Shown here: positions 11,571 to 35,547 of the stretch, piece by piece | Numbering within the stretch: the stretch's first letter is position 1 | Layout: each line of letters starts with the position of its first letter | IMG/VR virus record: IMGVR_UViG_3300028840_008180 | Span: 1 to 64,000 of that record | Length of the DNA stretch: 64,000 nt | Source: a virus | Direction: 5' to 3' (one strand) | Made by a program: the position numbers and the translations under genes | Notes under the pieces: model-generated | Database searches by the model: none | What the model was told of the DNA's origin: nothing | What the model saw: only the letters and a program-made list of their open reading frames with translations

Positions 11571-12215
11571 ATGCCATTAACATTATTTAATCCAGCACCC
11601 GGTGGTGACGCCATGGGCGTTGGTTCTGTGGGTATCGGTAACCCCGATGTAGTTTTCAAAAGGAAGTTTCGATGGACTTTTGAAGTAGAGGGCAAGAGCC
11701 GCCAATGTCCGTTCGCAGTTCCTGCATACTTCTGCAAAATTTCCGCTCGACCTAACATCTCTTTTGAAGACACAGAACTCAACTGGTTGAACGACAAGAT
11801 GTGGATTCCTGGTAAGGCTTCTTGGGAAACCATTACAGTAACATATCTTGATGCCGCTGGAACACTGAGCGGGCCTGACGCAGGGGCAAATCTTGGTTTG
11901 TACCAATGGTTGCTGAACGTCTACGACTTTGCCGTTCCAACGGACGGTAATGTCAACTTCACCCTGAAGAGGATGAACTCTAAGCGAAAGGCGTATTCCG
12001 GAGAAGTAACCCTACGTCTCTGGGATGGCTGCGGGCATGAGCTTGAACAATGGAAGCTGTTAGATGCTTGGCCACAGGCTATCAACTTTGGTGATCTCGA
12101 TTACAGTTCTTCGGATACTGTTGACATTGAGTTAACCTTGCGATATTCGATGGTCCAATTCACGCACAAGTGTCCCGATAATCCATACAAACACTGCTGC
12201 GAAGAGTGTGCTTAA
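11571..12215 (+). CDS. Tail tube protein (gp19-like), copy 1
   Basis: 214 aa. The gp19 fold is indicated by 'FKRKFRWTFEVEG', 'SARPNISFEDTELNWLND', 'GKASWETITVTYLD' and the C-terminal 'TLRLWDGCGHELEQWKL', 'AINFGDLDYSSSD', 'ELTLRYS'. Follows the sheath gene as in T4. Unusually it ends in a Cys-rich tail (CPDNPYKHCCEECA). One of three tandem tube paralogues; which one forms the main tube cannot be read from sequence, but position favours this one. Confidence 0.9.
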   Translation: MPLTLFNPAPGGDAMGVGSVGIGNPDVVFKRKFRWTFEVEGKSRQCPFAVPAYFCKISARPNISFEDTELNWLNDKMWIPGKASWETITVTYLDAAGTLSGPDAGANLGLYQWLLNVYDFAVPTDGNVNFTLKRMNSKRKAYSGEVTLRLWDGCGHELEQWKLLDAWPQAINFGDLDYSSSDTVDIELTLRYSMVQFTHKCPDNPYKHCCEECA

Positions 12216-12242
12216 CAACCTGAATAGACAAGAGGAGAATCG

Positions 12243-12878
12243 ATGGCGTCGTTCTTCGACCCAAGAAGACTGGGTATGGGGATCGGCTGGGGTGGTATCG
12301 GTGACGCTAACGTTGTATTCAAACGTAAGTTTCGCTGGACTATGGAAGTGATCGGTAACGGTTGTAAGGTCTATATACCACCCATGTTTGTCACGGTTGC
12401 CGCCCGCCCCCACGTAACATTTGAAGAAGTGGAAGTCAACTTCCTCAACAAAAAGACCTTTTGGGCGGGCAAACCGACATGGGAGCCGATTACCGTCACA
12501 TACCTCGATACTGCCGGGGGTTGGTATAATACCACGACCTGGGGCATCCTCGCATGGCTTAGTGCCGTCTATGATTTCAACGATCCTTTGCGCCGAGAAC
12601 GCCAATCGACAAAACGATGGAACTACATCGCTAATGTTAAGTTAACAATGTACGATGGGTGTGGCAAGCAGATGGAGGAGTGGATTCTTAAAGATGCTTG
12701 GCCAGCAGCAGCGAACTTTGGTGACGTTGACTACAGTGTTTCCGATGTCGCCAATATTGAGCTAACGCTACGTTACTCAGATGTACTTTACTCTGCTACT
12801 TGTGGTCTTAGGGGCTTGGGATGCCTATGTGGCGAATGCGAAGACCCCTCTGCCACCCCACAGGTACAAAATGTGTAG
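12243..12878 (+). CDS. Tail tube paralogue, copy 2
   Basis: 211 aa, clearly homologous to copy 1 ('FKRKFRWTMEV', 'AARPHVTFEEVEVNFLN', 'GKPTWEPITVTYLD', 'NFGDVDYSVSD', 'ELTLRYS'). Shares the Cys-rich C-terminus (CGLRGLGCLCGECED). Shine-Dalgarno GAGGAGA. May be a specialised tube ring, for example at the baseplate or tail end (a role filled by gp54 or gp3-type proteins in T4). Confidence 0.9.
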   Translation: MASFFDPRRLGMGIGWGGIGDANVVFKRKFRWTMEVIGNGCKVYIPPMFVTVAARPHVTFEEVEVNFLNKKTFWAGKPTWEPITVTYLDTAGGWYNTTTWGILAWLSAVYDFNDPLRRERQSTKRWNYIANVKLTMYDGCGKQMEEWILKDAWPAAANFGDVDYSVSDVANIELTLRYSDVLYSATCGLRGLGCLCGECEDPSATPQVQNV

Positions 12879-12889
12879 GATAGAGTAAT

Positions 12890-13567
12890 ATGGCACAAAA
12901 GCCACCAACCTGCGAACACCTAGGAAGGATGAACCTGGACTTCGGCCTCGAAGACTGGAACGTCTGCCAGAAGATGAAGAATCGCTGGTTGTTCAAGATT
13001 GATGGGGTTTCGGCAACTGTCTCTGGTTCGATTAGTGCCTTACCTCCATTGAAAGGTGGCCGTCCCAAGTTGGACTTGGTGGAACAAGAGGTCCAACACT
13101 TGGTGCAAAAGGTCTATTACCCGGTGAAAGCCGAGTGGAAACCCATCCAACTAACCCTGTATGATATAACCCGTCACAACCCCGTATTCCTCTGGCTGGA
13201 AATGGTATACAGTCCCCAACCCTCTGGGGGTTTCTACGAATGGAACCTATTGTCACCTGAATTTTGCCAAGCAACATCGACTCAAGTTCCTTTTGATGAT
13301 CAGCAATCGTGCTTCAAACGAACCGGTGCAATATGCATTTATGGTGGTTGTGGCGAATTGTTGGAAGCTTGGAAGTTGGACAACTGTTGGCCCCAATCTA
13401 TAGATTGGGGCGACTTAGACATGGCCGATAGCAACGTCATCACGGTAGATGTTACCCTTCGTTATGACCGGGCCTACCTCGTCTTCCCAGAACGACCTTC
13501 AACCGCAAGCCCCAACACTTACACAGGGGGCACCAATCTCGGTGGCGTACCAAGCCCTAATAACTAA
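12890..13567 (+). CDS. Tail tube paralogue, copy 3
   Basis: 225 aa. More divergent than copies 1 and 2 but keeps 'KNRWLFKIDGV', 'KAEWKPIQLTLYD', 'IYGGCGELLEAWKLDNCWPQ', 'IDWGDLDMAD' and 'VDVTLRYD'. Lacks the Cys-rich tail, ending instead in a Pro/Asn/Gly stretch. The 22-bp palindrome GCCCCAATCTATAGATTGGG(GC) lies within it near 13385. Its last 4 bp overlap the convergent gene. Confidence 0.85.
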   Translation: MAQKPPTCEHLGRMNLDFGLEDWNVCQKMKNRWLFKIDGVSATVSGSISALPPLKGGRPKLDLVEQEVQHLVQKVYYPVKAEWKPIQLTLYDITRHNPVFLWLEMVYSPQPSGGFYEWNLLSPEFCQATSTQVPFDDQQSCFKRTGAICIYGGCGELLEAWKLDNCWPQSIDWGDLDMADSNVITVDVTLRYDRAYLVFPERPSTASPNTYTGGTNLGGVPSPNN

Positions 13568-20240: not shown

Positions 20241-21494
20241 ATGACAGAAAGCAACTTCCGTCAAGAACGTAAAAAGAAGGTTACGCCCGAAGAGGTGGGT
20301 AGCCTTCCTGAAGCAAAAAAACCAACCGAGCAGGGACCACCGCCACCGATGGTGGAGAGTCCTGGTGAGGGAAACCCACTTGATCAAGTCCATGCCTTTC
20401 AGAGAGAGGCTGGGGTAAGTGTTGGGGGGCAACAACAAGGACACACACCGGGTGAACAACAGGTTGGCGATATACTTGCAAAACCCATGGAGGGAGTTTC
20501 TGTTACTGGAAAAATACCCCCAGCAATGCAACAGGCTTTGCAACAGCGGATTTCTCAGGTGCAGCAGGGCGACGAAGATGAAATGCATATGCCACCACCC
20601 GTGCGAGAGATGCCCGACTATGAATTGCCGCCCCATCAGCAGCAACAGCCTCCAATGCCAGATTACAATCCTTCGCAGATACAGACTAACGATCCCAATC
20701 TGAATGCTCTGTTGGCTGGCTTGTCGACACAGAATTATGAAGAAATCCTCCTTCCATCACGAGGGGTCCTCTATGATTCGCCCGATCTACCAGTTAACGG
20801 TGTACTACATCTACGACCGATGACCGGTCAAGAGGAAAGTATCCTTTCGACAGTTCGCTTTATGCGAGGTGGCCGAGGTATCGAGATGATCTTCAAGAAC
20901 TGTATACAGGAGAAGAACATCAATACCGAGAACATGCTGAGCGTCGACCGGACGTTCCTATTGGTCTACCTCCGAGCTATTTCGTATGGAAACATGTACG
21001 AGGTTAGTGTCCGTTGTCCCGATTGTAACCATCAATTCGATTACGATATCGATTTGAACCTGCCGATTGACTACTGTCCAGAAAGCTTCACTAAGGCTAG
21101 CATGACGAGGCAGTTGCCAAAAACTGGGTATGTTTTCAACTACCAGTTGATGACCGGTGCCATCGAGACACAAGTTGGCCAATATCGTGATCATAAATCG
21201 AAGTTCTCGAATGCAACCGATGATTCGTTCATCTATCGAGCTTCGATGCTGATTACCGAAATTGGCAACAAGGATGCGAAGATAGATCAGCGACATGGCA
21301 TCCAAGCATTGATCGAGCGGCTGCCCGCTCAAGATGTGAACTACATTCGCAACGTGTTGAACGAGCCGCCATTTGGCGTCGATACTGAGGTGAAGGTTAT
21401 TTGCCCGGCTTGTACGAGCCAGTTCCCGGTCGAATTGCCGTATGAAGCCAATTTTTTCTTCCCACGGGAGAGGATAGAGGACACGCAGCATTAA
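20241..21494 (+). CDS. Baseplate protein, T4 gp26-type
   Basis: 417 aa. The C-terminal 240 residues match the T4_baseplate family (gp26 and relatives): 'ILLPSRGVLYDSPDLPVNGV', 'LHLRPMTGQEESILST', 'GRGIEMIFKNCI', 'LLVYLRAISYGNMYEVSVRC'. Two CxxC pairs (CPDCNHQFDY; CPACTSQFPVEL) probably bind zinc. The first 170 residues are a Gln/Pro-rich disordered region. In T4 gp26 takes part in baseplate hub assembly. The end of the gene carries T-TTT-TTC followed by an open -1 frame with no start codon, suggesting a frameshifted longer product (see 21458). Shine-Dalgarno AGAGGAG. Confidence 0.8.
   Translation: MTESNFRQERKKKVTPEEVGSLPEAKKPTEQGPPPPMVESPGEGNPLDQVHAFQREAGVSVGGQQQGHTPGEQQVGDILAKPMEGVSVTGKIPPAMQQALQQRISQVQQGDEDEMHMPPPVREMPDYELPPHQQQQPPMPDYNPSQIQTNDPNLNALLAGLSTQNYEEILLPSRGVLYDSPDLPVNGVLHLRPMTGQEESILSTVRFMRGGRGIEMIFKNCIQEKNINTENMLSVDRTFLLVYLRAISYGNMYEVSVRCPDCNHQFDYDIDLNLPIDYCPESFTKASMTRQLPKTGYVFNYQLMTGAIETQVGQYRDHKSKFSNATDDSFIYRASMLITEIGNKDAKIDQRHGIQALIERLPAQDVNYIRNVLNEPPFGVDTEVKVICPACTSQFPVELPYEANFFFPRERIEDTQH
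21452..21458 (+). promoter_or_regulatory. Probable -1 ribosomal frameshift site TTTTTTC
   Basis: T TTT TTC in the zero frame of the baseplate gene (codons AAT TTT TTC) fits the X-XXY-YYZ slippery rule exactly. A -1 slip opens a 67-codon frame that has no ATG, GTG or usable TTG before its conserved-looking part. Confidence 0.65.
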
Positions 21495-21661
21495 CCTACT
21501 CCCAGTGGCTCTACCAGGAATTGTTCTTCCTGGCGTACCACTTGAAGCAGGATATTATCAAAGTGAAGACATGTCTCTCCCCTGTAGAACGGCGATACTT
21601 CATTGACCAGTTTGTCGAACAACGAGAAAGAGAGCATAAGGAGTTGAACAAGAAGAATTGA
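21458..21661 (+). CDS. -1 frame extension of baseplate protein (assembly-chaperone-like)
   Basis: 67 codons read only after a -1 shift: LPTGEDRGHAALTYSQWLYQ, then 'ELFFLAYHLKQDIIKV', 'LSPVERRYFIDQFVEQRERE', ending in TGA. The 'W-x2-YQE-x-FFLAYHL' pattern resembles small helical proteins that follow gp26-type genes in other T4-like phages. The fusion would be about 473 aa. In this frame a TGA lies upstream at 21442, and the first start-like codon (TTG) falls after the motif begins, so separate initiation is unlikely. Comparable frameshift products act as tail-assembly chaperones in lambda- and P2-type phages. Confidence 0.6.
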   Translation, partial: LPTGEDRGHAALTYSQWLYQELFFLAYHLKQDIIKVKTCLSPVERRYFIDQFVEQREREHKELNKKN

Positions 21662-22483: not shown

Positions 22484-23434
22484 CTAGTACTTGTGCCCAC
22501 AGACGTGGCAGAAGTTAGCTTTTGCCGGTTTTCGCTTGGCACCACAATTTGGGCAGTAGCCACCCTTAACGGCCCCAAAGCCGCCGCCCTCTTGTATTTC
22601 GGCGATTTCCTCTTGTTGGTGACCTCGTAGGAAGACCTTCACCGTAGTGAATTGTTCCTCTAGGTCAATATCCACCTTACGGAACCGTTGGCTAGAGTAG
22701 CTACCTTCGACGGTTACGCCTGGGGTAACTTCTCTCTTAGCCCGACAACGCTTAGCGGTAGGTGCGGCATCAGCGAAGCCGAAGCTACTATTGAGCAACT
22801 CGGCATCCGCTGGGGCGGTCTCCGGTTGCACAACACCACCAGCCTGATATTGGATGGTTGGTGGTACTGCACTTGAAGTTGTCCCGCCGCCACCGCAACA
22901 GTGTATCTCGGATGGGATCGGCGGACAGTCGTCTGTCGTTGGGTCGGAAAACCAGGTCATATCCCAGTTCGTGATGTGCCCATCATAGTGGTGGTGGTGG
23001 TGATGGATATCCCTTCTCCGGTACCACGGCGTCTTCTTTTCGTGGTGGTGGTGATGATGCACCTCCACCGGCTTCGCCTTCTCCAGATAGAAGCGTGCTT
23101 CAATCACGCCGTTCAACCGATCCTTGTTCTCTGGGTCCTTTCCGAAGTCTTGTGCCTCAGTGGAATCCGGAGCAACGAATAAGAACTTTCGAGGCGAGTA
23201 GCTATTCCGCTCGATGTCAACATAGCTATTCGGCTGTATCACGTAGCCGTTTTTGCTTTGTTCCTCACCATCGATGTACAGCTTAACGACTGCACGTCGA
23301 TCACGGTGCTTATTCCTGAAGCGGATGCTATACTCGGTGTCGAAGGGAAGTTCAACGGTACTATCATTCAGTTCTTTCTGAATCTTACCGTTGACGAGAA
23401 TTGAAACTACGAAGCGATTGCTGTAAGCCATCAT
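22484..23434 (-). CDS. Protein with two natural His6 tracts and a double zinc ribbon
   Basis: 316 aa from MMAYSNRFVV, preceded by AAAGGAG. The N-terminal 115 residues form a beta domain ('VSILVNGKIQKEL', 'LPFDTEYSIRFRNKHRDRRA', 'KLYIDGEE', 'GVIEARFYLEKAKP') known from assorted bacterial and phage surface-type proteins. Then come two exact six-His runs 14 residues apart (VEVHHHHHHE; DIHHHHHHYD), a Gly/Cys patch, and a C-terminal CPNC-x13-CHVC zinc ribbon. Role unknown; the His runs should bind Ni, Zn or Cu strongly. Isolated by the terminator at 22437. Confidence 0.75.
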   Translation of the reverse strand: MMAYSNRFVVSILVNGKIQKELNDSTVELPFDTEYSIRFRNKHRDRRAVVKLYIDGEEQSKNGYVIQPNSYVDIERNSYSPRKFLFVAPDSTEAQDFGKDPENKDRLNGVIEARFYLEKAKPVEVHHHHHHEKKTPWYRRRDIHHHHHHYDGHITNWDMTWFSDPTTDDCPPIPSEIHCCGGGGTTSSAVPPTIQYQAGGVVQPETAPADAELLNSSFGFADAAPTAKRCRAKREVTPGVTVEGSYSSQRFRKVDIDLEEQFTTVKVFLRGHQQEEIAEIQEGGGFGAVKGGYCPNCGAKRKPAKANFCHVCGHKY

Positions 23435-23770
23435 TGAAAACTCTCCTTTTATCTCTGTAGGACATACCCTCAGCCTCATTGGGCGGTTGAAAATTCGGGG
23501 TCCGAGTCAGGACTCCAAGGCATTTCTGTCCTTTTTCTATCTATCGACAGGAGAGTAATAGAACTTGAGGAAATCCCCAATTTCTTGCTTTTTCCCGAGA
23601 GAGTGTGTACGATGGTTGTAGAGGGTGCGACAAAGAATTTATCCGTGGAGGGTCAGAGAAATTGCCGATATATGCGGGATTTCCGCAATATACAGGAAAA
23701 AGTGGGGTTGACCGGTTTACGAAAGGCCCATAGAATGGCTTCGGAACACAAAAACCCTGATGGAGGTGAA

Positions 23771-32224: not shown

Positions 32225-32251
32225 GTGGCTAAAACAGGTAAAAAAAGCCAC
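32225..32251 (-). terminator. Terminator after gp46-like gene
   Basis: On the minus strand, GTGGCT (overlapping the stop) pairs with AGCCAC and is followed by ATTTTTG. A short stem with a T-rich loop and T-tract, so moderate. Confidence 0.5.
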
Positions 32252-35200
32252 TAACCGATCCTTCTGGTGAAGCCATTTTGCTTCTGTACCATGATGGTTC
32301 TGACACCATCAAGCATCTGTCGAAGATGGGTGTTGTGAGTAACAACAAAGACTTGTTTTTCCTTCGCCAACTCACAGATAGTTTGGTAGATGCTTCTCAC
32401 TCCTCGCTGGTCGATACTGTCAGAAACCTCGTCAAGGAAAACGAGGGATGGCCATGTTCCACTAGAGAACATCATTACATGAGCAAACGCCTGGGAGATA
32501 GCTAGGTTGATCCGTTTTCGCTCACCACCACATGTGACAGAGTAGCTGTAAGCTTTGCCCTTAATAGGCTTGATGGTGGCATCTAAATGTCCATCGAAAC
32601 TGACCTCCATGCGGCCATCCATCAGGTGTTCCATCCAGTAAGCAATCCTTGCGTTCAATGCCGGTGTAATACCTTCGATGATATAAGAGCGAATACCATT
32701 TGGGCCGAATACTTTGATTGCATACTTGTAGTAGGGAATGATTTCTTCTGTCGCCTTTACCTTGACATCTTGATCTTCCTTCTTCTCGATGATTTCGATA
32801 AGGTCTTTGCGAGCTTGTTTCAGAATCTCTACGTAAGGACCACCATCAACTAGTTCATCCTCCTTAGCTTGAATGCTTCTTTCTGTTTGAGACAGCTTTT
32901 CCTTCAGCACCAGTTCTGTTGAGGTGAGGTCAGGTCGTTGCACGCCCCCAAGCTCTTCCAGTCGACTCTTGTCGTTTTGAATCGATTTCTTGATTGCATT
33001 CAGTTTGATACCAGCAATCCTCTTGAGTTCAGCTAGTTTGGCTAACGTTCCTTCATACTTTGCGATCTCAAGTTTGATGCTATCCTTCCGGACTTCATTA
33101 GCATTGATCTTTGGTTCCAAATGGTCGATCTTATTGTTGTGAAGTTTGATCACATGCTTGTAGTGTTGTTTGTTAATAGGTCCATAACAGTGCGGGCACT
33201 TGGCACCTTCGGGAAGCTTATTGAGTTTAGCGATCTCTCCCTTGCACTTCTCACGTTCCTTTATCATGTCCCGCATTTCACGATCTAGCGATTTGTAGCT
33301 AAGTTTCAACTCGTGAATCTTCAAGGAGACCTTGTTGTGATTCTCTTTGGTTTTCTGGAGCGCCTCATCCATGTTGGTCTCTTTAACGTCCTTATCAGCC
33401 AACCCATCTTGAATCGCCACAATTTCATTTTGTGCCCCTTCGTATTCGAGCAACGCCGAGCCGATATCCGTATTTCCGATTTGACCTTTGAGGACTTCGA
33501 TTTGACCTTTGAGGGTCTCAATATCTTTGAGACAGTTAGCACGCCACGCTTTGTTTTGTTGCTCAACTTGCGAAATACGATCAAGGCACGACGCTTCCGA
33601 TTCCTTGATCTGTTCGTAGGCGGTCATAAGCGATTTCAATTCCGCCTCGGTTGCTTTCAACTCCTTCTTAGCGGTCTCCAAGTAGTCGTTGTAGACTTCA
33701 AGTGACAGAAGGTTCTCGGCAATCGCTCGCTGCTCTTTTGAATCACACTCCAGAAAGTTGTATTCGTTGTGCTGTCCAAAGCAGACGACGTTCACAAATG
33801 CTTTGTGATTCATCTTGAGGATTTCTTCAATTCGCTTCTGCGTGGGTATCTGCCCACCACGACTATCCTCGTTGTTGTTCTTGGCTGGAGCATCAATCCA
33901 TGGTGGGCCTCCTTGCCACAATCGGACAGTGTCGGGTTGTCGGGTGCGGACAATCCGGTACCGTACATCGTCGATGCTGAAGATGATCTCAACCTCAAGC
34001 TTCTTACCTGTCCGGTTGTGGATGGCATCTGTATGCTTAACCTTCTTCCTAATGGTGTTACCATACAAACCGTAGACAACCATTTCGGCTATGGTGGAGT
34101 TATGTACAACAGTAAAATCGGCCAAGAGAAACAAGTGGTTACCGTCAGTTTGGAAACCATAGTAATTTCCGGTGCCTATTGGTTGTACCGAAATACCTAC
34201 CGTTAGCGGGTCTTTGGATTTAGATGTAGGTTGACAAGTTTTACGTGGTACTCTGGTTGGTATTTTTGAACAGTCGCCGCCAATATGAACTCGCCAGTAA
34301 GTTCCGGTTGCTCCCGTTTGACATTTTTTTTGACATTCTTTGGGGTAAGCTGAGAAGCCTAATGATCTAGCGAGGTAAGCGACATCAAATACTAACTTCT
34401 TGTTCTTATTTACAAACTCGAAACAGCCGCCGTTAAGGTGCCCATCCGAGTCCATGAGTCCAGCTAAAAGCTCCAAACGTACTTGTCTTGAATTAGCCTT
34501 GTATTGTAAGGGCACATGTTTGTTGTCTATTAGCTGGTAAGACTTAAGGTCTTTTAGTAAAGAGTTACAATTACGTGGGAAGCAATCTTTGGGTGATGTG
34601 GCTTTATGCTCCATTTGAAGCCATTTACGAACTCTGTCTATCGACCGCCACACAGCGGCAACACTCGGTTTCTCCTCTTGGTACCTAGAACAGTACTTCG
34701 GATATGATTTTCCAGCCTTCGTGGCAATTTCACTATAACACGCACCATTGAGATGTTGGTTGTAAATGAAAAACTCCGGAGGGTCGGGGCGAGCATCTAA
34801 ATTATCACTATGAATGGCTAGGTGCGGAACATCTTTTGAGTTCTTAAATTCACGAACTTGTAAGTTGCGTGATGCTGCCTCGGTCTTCACCACTTCGTGT
34901 ACCACCGAGTCAATGTTTGTAATAATGGTTCCGGTCGAATTTCCGTCCCCCAACCAAATACCCAAAAAATACGGATCGATTCTTATTGGAGCCTTAGGAA
35001 AATCTACTGCTGTTCTGTAACCGCCCATTAAGTGCTTAAACGTCTTTGATTGTTTGAGGTAATCCTTGACGCTGATATTGAATATTGAAGAGTCCTCTTT
35101 GCTTGCGAATTTCGATTTGCTATACCGGTTGTACTTTTTGTCCTTAGTTTTCAACGTTAATATATGAGATTCGTTCACTACATACGAGTCTCCTTTGTTA

Positions 35201-35547
35201 GGAATGACCCGGTATAGTGGTTCTCGACCACGAGCTAACTTAAGCACTTTGCGGGGTGACGAATCATTTCCCATCACCTCATCGCCCACGACTATATCCT
35301 CTACCTTTTTGATAGTTCCATCATACATTAAGATGGGTGTGCCCTTACCAAAACATTTCCCCGCAGCATTCGAGTGGTACTCATTGCCTGATTCGCTACA
35401 CTCAAGTTCGTCCCACTCATCTTCATCGTGTAGGTCGAGATTACGACCTTTGATAAGAACGATGTTACCCAGTTCTGTGAAATTTATTTCGATAGGTTCT
35501 TCGCCGATGCAAAAGAAGTTCTTTGCACGGATGTATTCAATTCTCAT
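32251..35547 (-). CDS. Recombination nuclease SbcC/Rad50-type subunit (T4 gp46-like), intein-containing
   Basis: 1098 codons, of which residues 65-483 are an intein; the mature extein would be about 679 aa. Walker A is split: SNAAGK at 59-64, then ST after the intein. Downstream 'VVCFGQHNEYNFLE' (Q-loop region), long coiled coils, a zinc hook CPHC near residues 784-787, 'SYSVTCGGERKRINLAISQA' (ABC signature) and 'PSLVFLDEVSDSIDQRGVRS' (Walker B and D-loop) complete the family. With gp47 it forms the exonuclease complex used in recombination-dependent replication and host DNA breakdown. Overlaps the gp47 stop by ATGA. Confidence 0.92.
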   Translation of the reverse strand: MRIEYIRAKNFFCIGEEPIEINFTELGNIVLIKGRNLDLHDEDEWDELECSESGNEYHSNAAGKCFGKGTPILMYDGTIKKVEDIVVGDEVMGNDSSPRKVLKLARGREPLYRVIPNKGDSYVVNESHILTLKTKDKKYNRYSKSKFASKEDSSIFNISVKDYLKQSKTFKHLMGGYRTAVDFPKAPIRIDPYFLGIWLGDGNSTGTIITNIDSVVHEVVKTEAASRNLQVREFKNSKDVPHLAIHSDNLDARPDPPEFFIYNQHLNGACYSEIATKAGKSYPKYCSRYQEEKPSVAAVWRSIDRVRKWLQMEHKATSPKDCFPRNCNSLLKDLKSYQLIDNKHVPLQYKANSRQVRLELLAGLMDSDGHLNGGCFEFVNKNKKLVFDVAYLARSLGFSAYPKECQKKCQTGATGTYWRVHIGGDCSKIPTRVPRKTCQPTSKSKDPLTVGISVQPIGTGNYYGFQTDGNHLFLLADFTVVHNSTIAEMVVYGLYGNTIRKKVKHTDAIHNRTGKKLEVEIIFSIDDVRYRIVRTRQPDTVRLWQGGPPWIDAPAKNNNEDSRGGQIPTQKRIEEILKMNHKAFVNVVCFGQHNEYNFLECDSKEQRAIAENLLSLEVYNDYLETAKKELKATEAELKSLMTAYEQIKESEASCLDRISQVEQQNKAWRANCLKDIETLKGQIEVLKGQIGNTDIGSALLEYEGAQNEIVAIQDGLADKDVKETNMDEALQKTKENHNKVSLKIHELKLSYKSLDREMRDMIKEREKCKGEIAKLNKLPEGAKCPHCYGPINKQHYKHVIKLHNNKIDHLEPKINANEVRKDSIKLEIAKYEGTLAKLAELKRIAGIKLNAIKKSIQNDKSRLEELGGVQRPDLTSTELVLKEKLSQTERSIQAKEDELVDGGPYVEILKQARKDLIEIIEKKEDQDVKVKATEEIIPYYKYAIKVFGPNGIRSYIIEGITPALNARIAYWMEHLMDGRMEVSFDGHLDATIKPIKGKAYSYSVTCGGERKRINLAISQAFAHVMMFSSGTWPSLVFLDEVSDSIDQRGVRSIYQTICELAKEKQVFVVTHNTHLRQMLDGVRTIMVQKQNGFTRRIG
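34099..35355 (-). other. Intein with LAGLIDADG endonuclease in gp46 Walker A
   Basis: 419 residues. Block A 'CFGKGTPILM' begins with Cys1; block B around 'NESHILTLKT'; two endonuclease motifs 'YFLGIWLGDGN' and 'ELLAGLMDSDGHLNGG'; splice end 'GNHLFLLADFTVVHN' then Ser+1. The C-terminal His-Asn and the Cys/Ser nucleophiles are intact, so splicing should work. Insertion splits the P-loop between Lys and Ser, a favoured intein site, since only precise splicing restores ATPase activity. Confidence 0.92.

Follow-up and report, generated by a model that had tools for sequence, protein, structure and literature searches.

Frameshifted tail chaperones have been described for phages lambda (G/GT) and P2 (E/E') (Xu, Hendrix and Duda 2004, cited in PMC9024508). 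For phage T4, PMC3004832 lists gp26 and gp51 among the chaperones of hub assembly, and tail assembly chaperones were identified in T4-like phages by Vladimirov, Gautam and Davidson (Virology 2022;566:9-15, as cited in PMC10885494 and PMC12846349). According to the PRFect paper (PMC10885494), which cites that study, frameshifting is replaced in some T4-like phages by a short chaperone gene and a long fused one, and the paper on phage Adele (PMC12846349) refers to the same study for slippery poly-T sites in the TAC-N genes of such phages. In the Adele locus itself the small downstream ORF had long been annotated as separate or missed (PMC12846349).

We analysed a stretch of 64,000 nucleotides (the window) from a 92 kb virus record. 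The neighbourhood of the gene under study contains genes for a tail sheath and a tail sheath stabilizer, three tail tube genes, a ribonucleotide reductase gene and nuclease genes of the gp46/gp47 type; these mark the virus as a T4-like contractile-tailed phage. The three tail tube paralogs (11571-13567, + strand) stand in tandem and all belong to PHROG 4542. The gp46/SbcC-type gene (32251-35547, - strand) likely carries an intein, with Hom_end_hint (1.3e-23) covering residues 65-155 and LAGLIDADG domains lying at about 348-422. A 331-aa protein encoded at 22484-23479 on the - strand combines two runs of polyhistidine (HHHHHH or similar) with a zinc ribbon at its C-terminus.

The 0-frame product of the gp26-type gene matches the T4_baseplate family PF12322 (3.9e-18; 66.4 bits against a curated cut-off of 24.5) and the baseplate hub group PHROG 150 (2.7e-19). 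Within the window no recognised tape measure gene adjoins it, the next gene encoding a 243-aa protein of no recognised function. Lambda-type tail chaperone genes usually sit just ahead of the tape measure gene, but this place is not strictly defining for the T4 type, and T4 genes 26 and 51 are also not located there. The features of the locus are compiled in Table 1.

Table 1. Features of the gp26-type locus (window coordinates) and loci of relatives with the extension in the +1 frame (coordinates of the respective locus)
Feature	Position	Strand	Basis
gp26-type gene; its 0-frame product, the predicted TAC-N short form, has 417 aa	20241..21494	+	PF12322 and PHROG 150 matches
Slippery heptamer T TTT TTC, in register	21452..21458	+	sequence; codon constraint across relatives
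Predicted TAC-C: extension of 67 aa in the -1 frame, then TGA	21458..21661	+	open frame, dN/dS, AlphaFold2
Predicted stimulatory stem-loop, arms 21462-21470 / 21499-21508	21462..21508	+	fold and covariation
0-frame TAA stop, end of short form	21492..21494	+	
+1-frame loci	L005 2733-2771; L006 2706-2744; L007 2664-2702; L008 2724-2762; L191-L195		

As the preliminary description had proposed, a T TTT TTC heptamer of the X XXY YYZ type lies in register near the end of the gene, ahead of the 0-frame stop, and the -1 frame then stays open for 67 codons up to a TGA at 21659-21661. The 0-frame codons at the site read AAT TTT TTC TTC CCA, the right register for a tandem -1 slip. Fusion of 0-frame residues 1-406 to the extension gives a predicted product of 473 aa (TAC-NC). 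The string TTTTTTC is not enriched in the window (11 observed, 15.6 expected), and among 34 long ORFs checked an in-frame T TTT TTC is unique to the gp26-type gene. Judged from the window alone, 67 open -1 codons would follow a random codon by chance in about 2.3% of cases. The case from this single genome is thus modest and suggestive, a lead only.

Of the loci that a profile search returned, 80 were viral and one came from a Neisseriaceae metagenome-assembled genome. The set of distinct members of the window's clade comprised 64 sequences including the window and a 595-kb phage (L004); no cultured phage was found in this clade. An alignment of relatives had been suggested as a check, and in it the heptamer is in frame in 62 of the 64 distinct relatives, the remaining two (L133 and L134) reading C TTT TTC, while the -1 extension is open in all 64. 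The slip codons 404-407 are the top four of 256 columns for codon constraint: the codons AAT/GGT TTT TTC TTC show identities of 1.0, 1.0, 1.0 and 0.97 against 0.50-0.52 expected, with a mean excess of 0.04 over all 256 columns. The fourth of them, TTC, is probably held by a proline in the -1 frame. Phe395, about nine codons upstream of the slip site, is written TTT in 42 and TTC in 22 relatives. Judging from its substitution pattern past the 0-frame stop the extension is under purifying selection, with a median dN/dS of about 0.075 and rates of 0.30/0.18/0.51 at codon positions 1/2/3, a third-position variation as in coding sequence. This comparative evidence puts the predicted frameshift arrangement far beyond chance. 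Heptamer, codon constraint, conserved -1 frame and purifying selection on the extension together strongly support the programmed -1 frameshift of the preliminary description, and the uncultivated clade is a new, further member of the frameshifted gp26-type chaperones.

The predicted stem begins 3 nt past the heptamer and spans the 0-frame stop. In the window it folds at -19.6 kcal/mol with a shuffling z of only -1.19 (72 nt), and shuffling over the relatives gave a mean z of -0.88, which is mildly structured. In the set of 64 relatives each arm pairs better with its partner from the same sequence than with one from another sequence (z -4.0), a difference that three control arms did not show. 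The covarying stem, which is new, is judged likely, and it would act as a stimulatory element after the slip site.

The arrangement extends to other phage lineages. All 79 genes of cyanophage relatives finish with NNT TTT TTC NNN stop, their extension lying in the -1 frame, although phenylalanine elsewhere is encoded by 739 TTT and 132 TTC codons (85% TTT). T TTT TTC followed by a -1 extension is also present in Pseudomonas phage Cassandra, Agrobacterium phage Atu_ph07, Vibrio phage 2.275, Desulfovibrio phage 7757, Vibrio phage phi-Grn1 and contig L016. Two jumbo phages, XacN1 and RAS14, have T TTT TTT with seven T, and Rhizobium RHph_I1_9 has T TTT TTG; a profile of the XacN1 type found no relatives in viral contigs. 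Throughout these lineages the codon preceding the slip has T as its last base whatever the amino acid (N, G, S, D, H, Y, A), so selection acts on the base rather than on the protein.

It could be argued that the small ORF is a separate gene, translated alone through reinitiation or translational coupling where the gp26-type gene ends. Start codons for such a gene are found in parts of the family: an ATG lies at the 0-frame stop of L002, L003 and L004, all 79 cyanophage relatives have one 2 nt past the stop, and the annotation of cyanophage P-SSM2 contains a separate gp51. In Ackermannviridae the phages L105, L108 and L109 have a gp26-type gene without the slippery heptamer, and the TAATG stop-start overlap of L105 and L109 suggests coupled separate translation. 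An ATG of its own in relatives had been named beforehand as speaking against frameshifting; a minority of the clade has one, but these members also keep the heptamer, and where an ATG sits at or after the 0-frame stop independent translation of the extension may coexist with the frameshift. The window itself has no ATG anywhere in the 67-codon extension. The earliest possible start is a TTG at 21521, within the conserved-looking core, which corrects the earlier statement of no start until after the core; initiation there would remove most of predicted helix 1. Among the 64 relatives ATG is missing before the core in 35, which further supports the frameshift, and ATG, GTG and TTG are all missing in 19. 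Since a separate gene also leaves the top codon constraint at the heptamer codons unexplained, and since T4 gp51 joins both parts covalently in one protein, we consider this reading improbable.

Even less probable is transcriptional slippage, in which RNA polymerase would slip on the T run and produce mixed mRNAs. The site is indeed a T run, and the seven T of the two jumbo phages would fit, but nearly all sequences retain both the C after six T and the exact codon register, which suits re-pairing of tRNAs and not a signal of length only. Six T are also short for transcriptional slippage. That the T run merely reflects conserved phenylalanines, with the -1 ORF due to chance or sequencing error, would agree with the FFF conserved in the protein and with the odds for the window's open frame, but the fixed TTT TTC at the site against mixed Phe codons elsewhere and a -1 frame that is open in every relative, with its low median dN/dS, rule out chance, sequencing error and pure amino-acid conservation.

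Other members of the family differ in how the extension is connected. In SP-15-like phages and one huge phage (LR756508) it lies in the +1 (or -2) frame, and the SP-15-like genes have in common GAR TTY TTT NNN NCC (C/A)GA (MGA) right before the stop. A +1 frameshift in SP-15-like phages is possible from this pattern and would be a new variant; if this group is real, the direction of the shift was swapped in evolution with the product kept. In Alishewanella phage Slickus01 (L013) no recognisable extension follows the gp26-type gene in either shifted frame (after 2711), and a 203-nt gap separates the gene from the next one. Taken together, the chaperone family may reach the long form or its parts by at least four routes: for most phages -1 slippage at T TTT TTY, for SP-15-like phages a +1 (or -2) shift near GAR TTY TTT NNN NCC MGA, for Ackermannviridae coupling through a stop-start overlap, and for T4 duplication of the gene together with fusion. 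We would give this joint reading even odds.

We also compared the predicted proteins with known structures and with T4. AlphaFold2 modelled the last 258 residues of the short form with a pLDDT of 92, and the structural neighbours of the model are baseplate hub and gp26 proteins. Against solved structures Foldseek found no significant fold for the short form; as to the known TAC-N fold (HK97, YqbN), the tail chaperones 2ob9 and 3klu came up with non-significant E values of 4-5. The extension is predicted to be a confident three-helix domain (pLDDT 93; helices 5-28, 33-39 and 42-65). PHROG and Pfam scans of its 67 aa gave nothing significant, and Foldseek against viral models gave weak matches only, including tail assembly chaperones from BonaeVitae and RcRhea as well as a 246-aa protein of a Campylobacter phage. 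T4 gp26 and gp51 both match PF12322; gp51 carries an extra C-terminal piece, and gp26 ends in GAG TTC TTT GAG without the heptamer. The gp51 tail aligns with the cyanophage-type extension (E 1e-5), which in turn aligns with the extension of the window's clade (E 8e-4); the direct match between the latter and the gp51 tail is weak, so the link runs via the cyanophages. Along this chain of alignments T4 appears to encode the short and the long form as two paralogous genes.

In summary, we assign a probability of about 0.92 to the reading that the gp26-type gene yields both TAC-N and TAC-NC by -1 slippage. Most ribosomes would read to the TAA and release the short form. The analysis shows the heptamer with its register and codon constraint, the conserved coding -1 frame and the homology of the short form to T4 gp26/gp51, and we infer that some ribosomes slip back one base on T TTT TTC, with an efficiency to which the stem probably contributes; these would read 67 more codons and complete the 473-aa form with its three-helix C-terminal domain. 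The predicted forms have their N-terminal domain in common, and T4 gp26/gp51 represent such a pair as two genes. Since both T4 proteins belong to PF12322, with the additional piece in gp51 and the heptamer absent from gp26, we read the products of the window as TAC-N and TAC-NC. They are most likely tail assembly chaperones and not baseplate structural proteins. A longer form is thus predicted, as the preliminary description had it, although that text spoke of a baseplate protein by analogy with tail-assembly chaperone frameshifts and the product is best read as a chaperone of gp26/gp51 type itself. By analogy to lambda gpG/gpGT, both forms probably help the tape measure and hub assemble and then leave.

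This reading would correct the annotation of a very common gene pair: in most lineages tested the small ORF after gp26-type genes, now labelled 'gp51' or 'hypothetical protein' or left unannotated, is most likely a frameshifted chaperone tail. The locus also offers a natural T TTT TTC site that is deeply conserved and accompanied by a covarying stem, and the gp26-type family allows different solutions to one isoform problem to be compared.

Several groups of T4-like phages reportedly keep frameshifting, and the window locus is a well-supported further case of what has already been described for these phages. The preliminary description had known of no frameshift in a T4_baseplate-family gene; such frameshifting had, however, been described before for the family (Vladimirov et al. 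2022, as cited by PMC10885494 and PMC12846349). Lambda G/GT and P2 E/E' resemble the window in that a short chaperone gene carries a -1 slip close to its end, which gives a longer minor form; no sequence similarity to the window gene was found. The lambda-type place right before the tape measure gene is seen in the relative LIS04 and probably in SP-15, but not in the window. The Vandenendeviridae/Andersonviridae locus of phage Adele (PMC12846349) likewise shifts to -1 at a T-rich site, but with a GTTTTT motif and in other phage families. Closer is the gp26 and gp51 pair of cyanophage P-SSM2, which has the same domain order and a -1 extension, with T TTT TTC one codon before the stop; unlike in the window, an ATG just after the stop makes separate translation possible there. 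T4 gp26 (TAC-N) and gp51 (TAC-NC) correspond to the window in PF12322 membership and in the combination of a short form with a long form carrying a C-terminal domain, but they are encoded by two divergent paralogous genes, where the window has one gene and a slip site.
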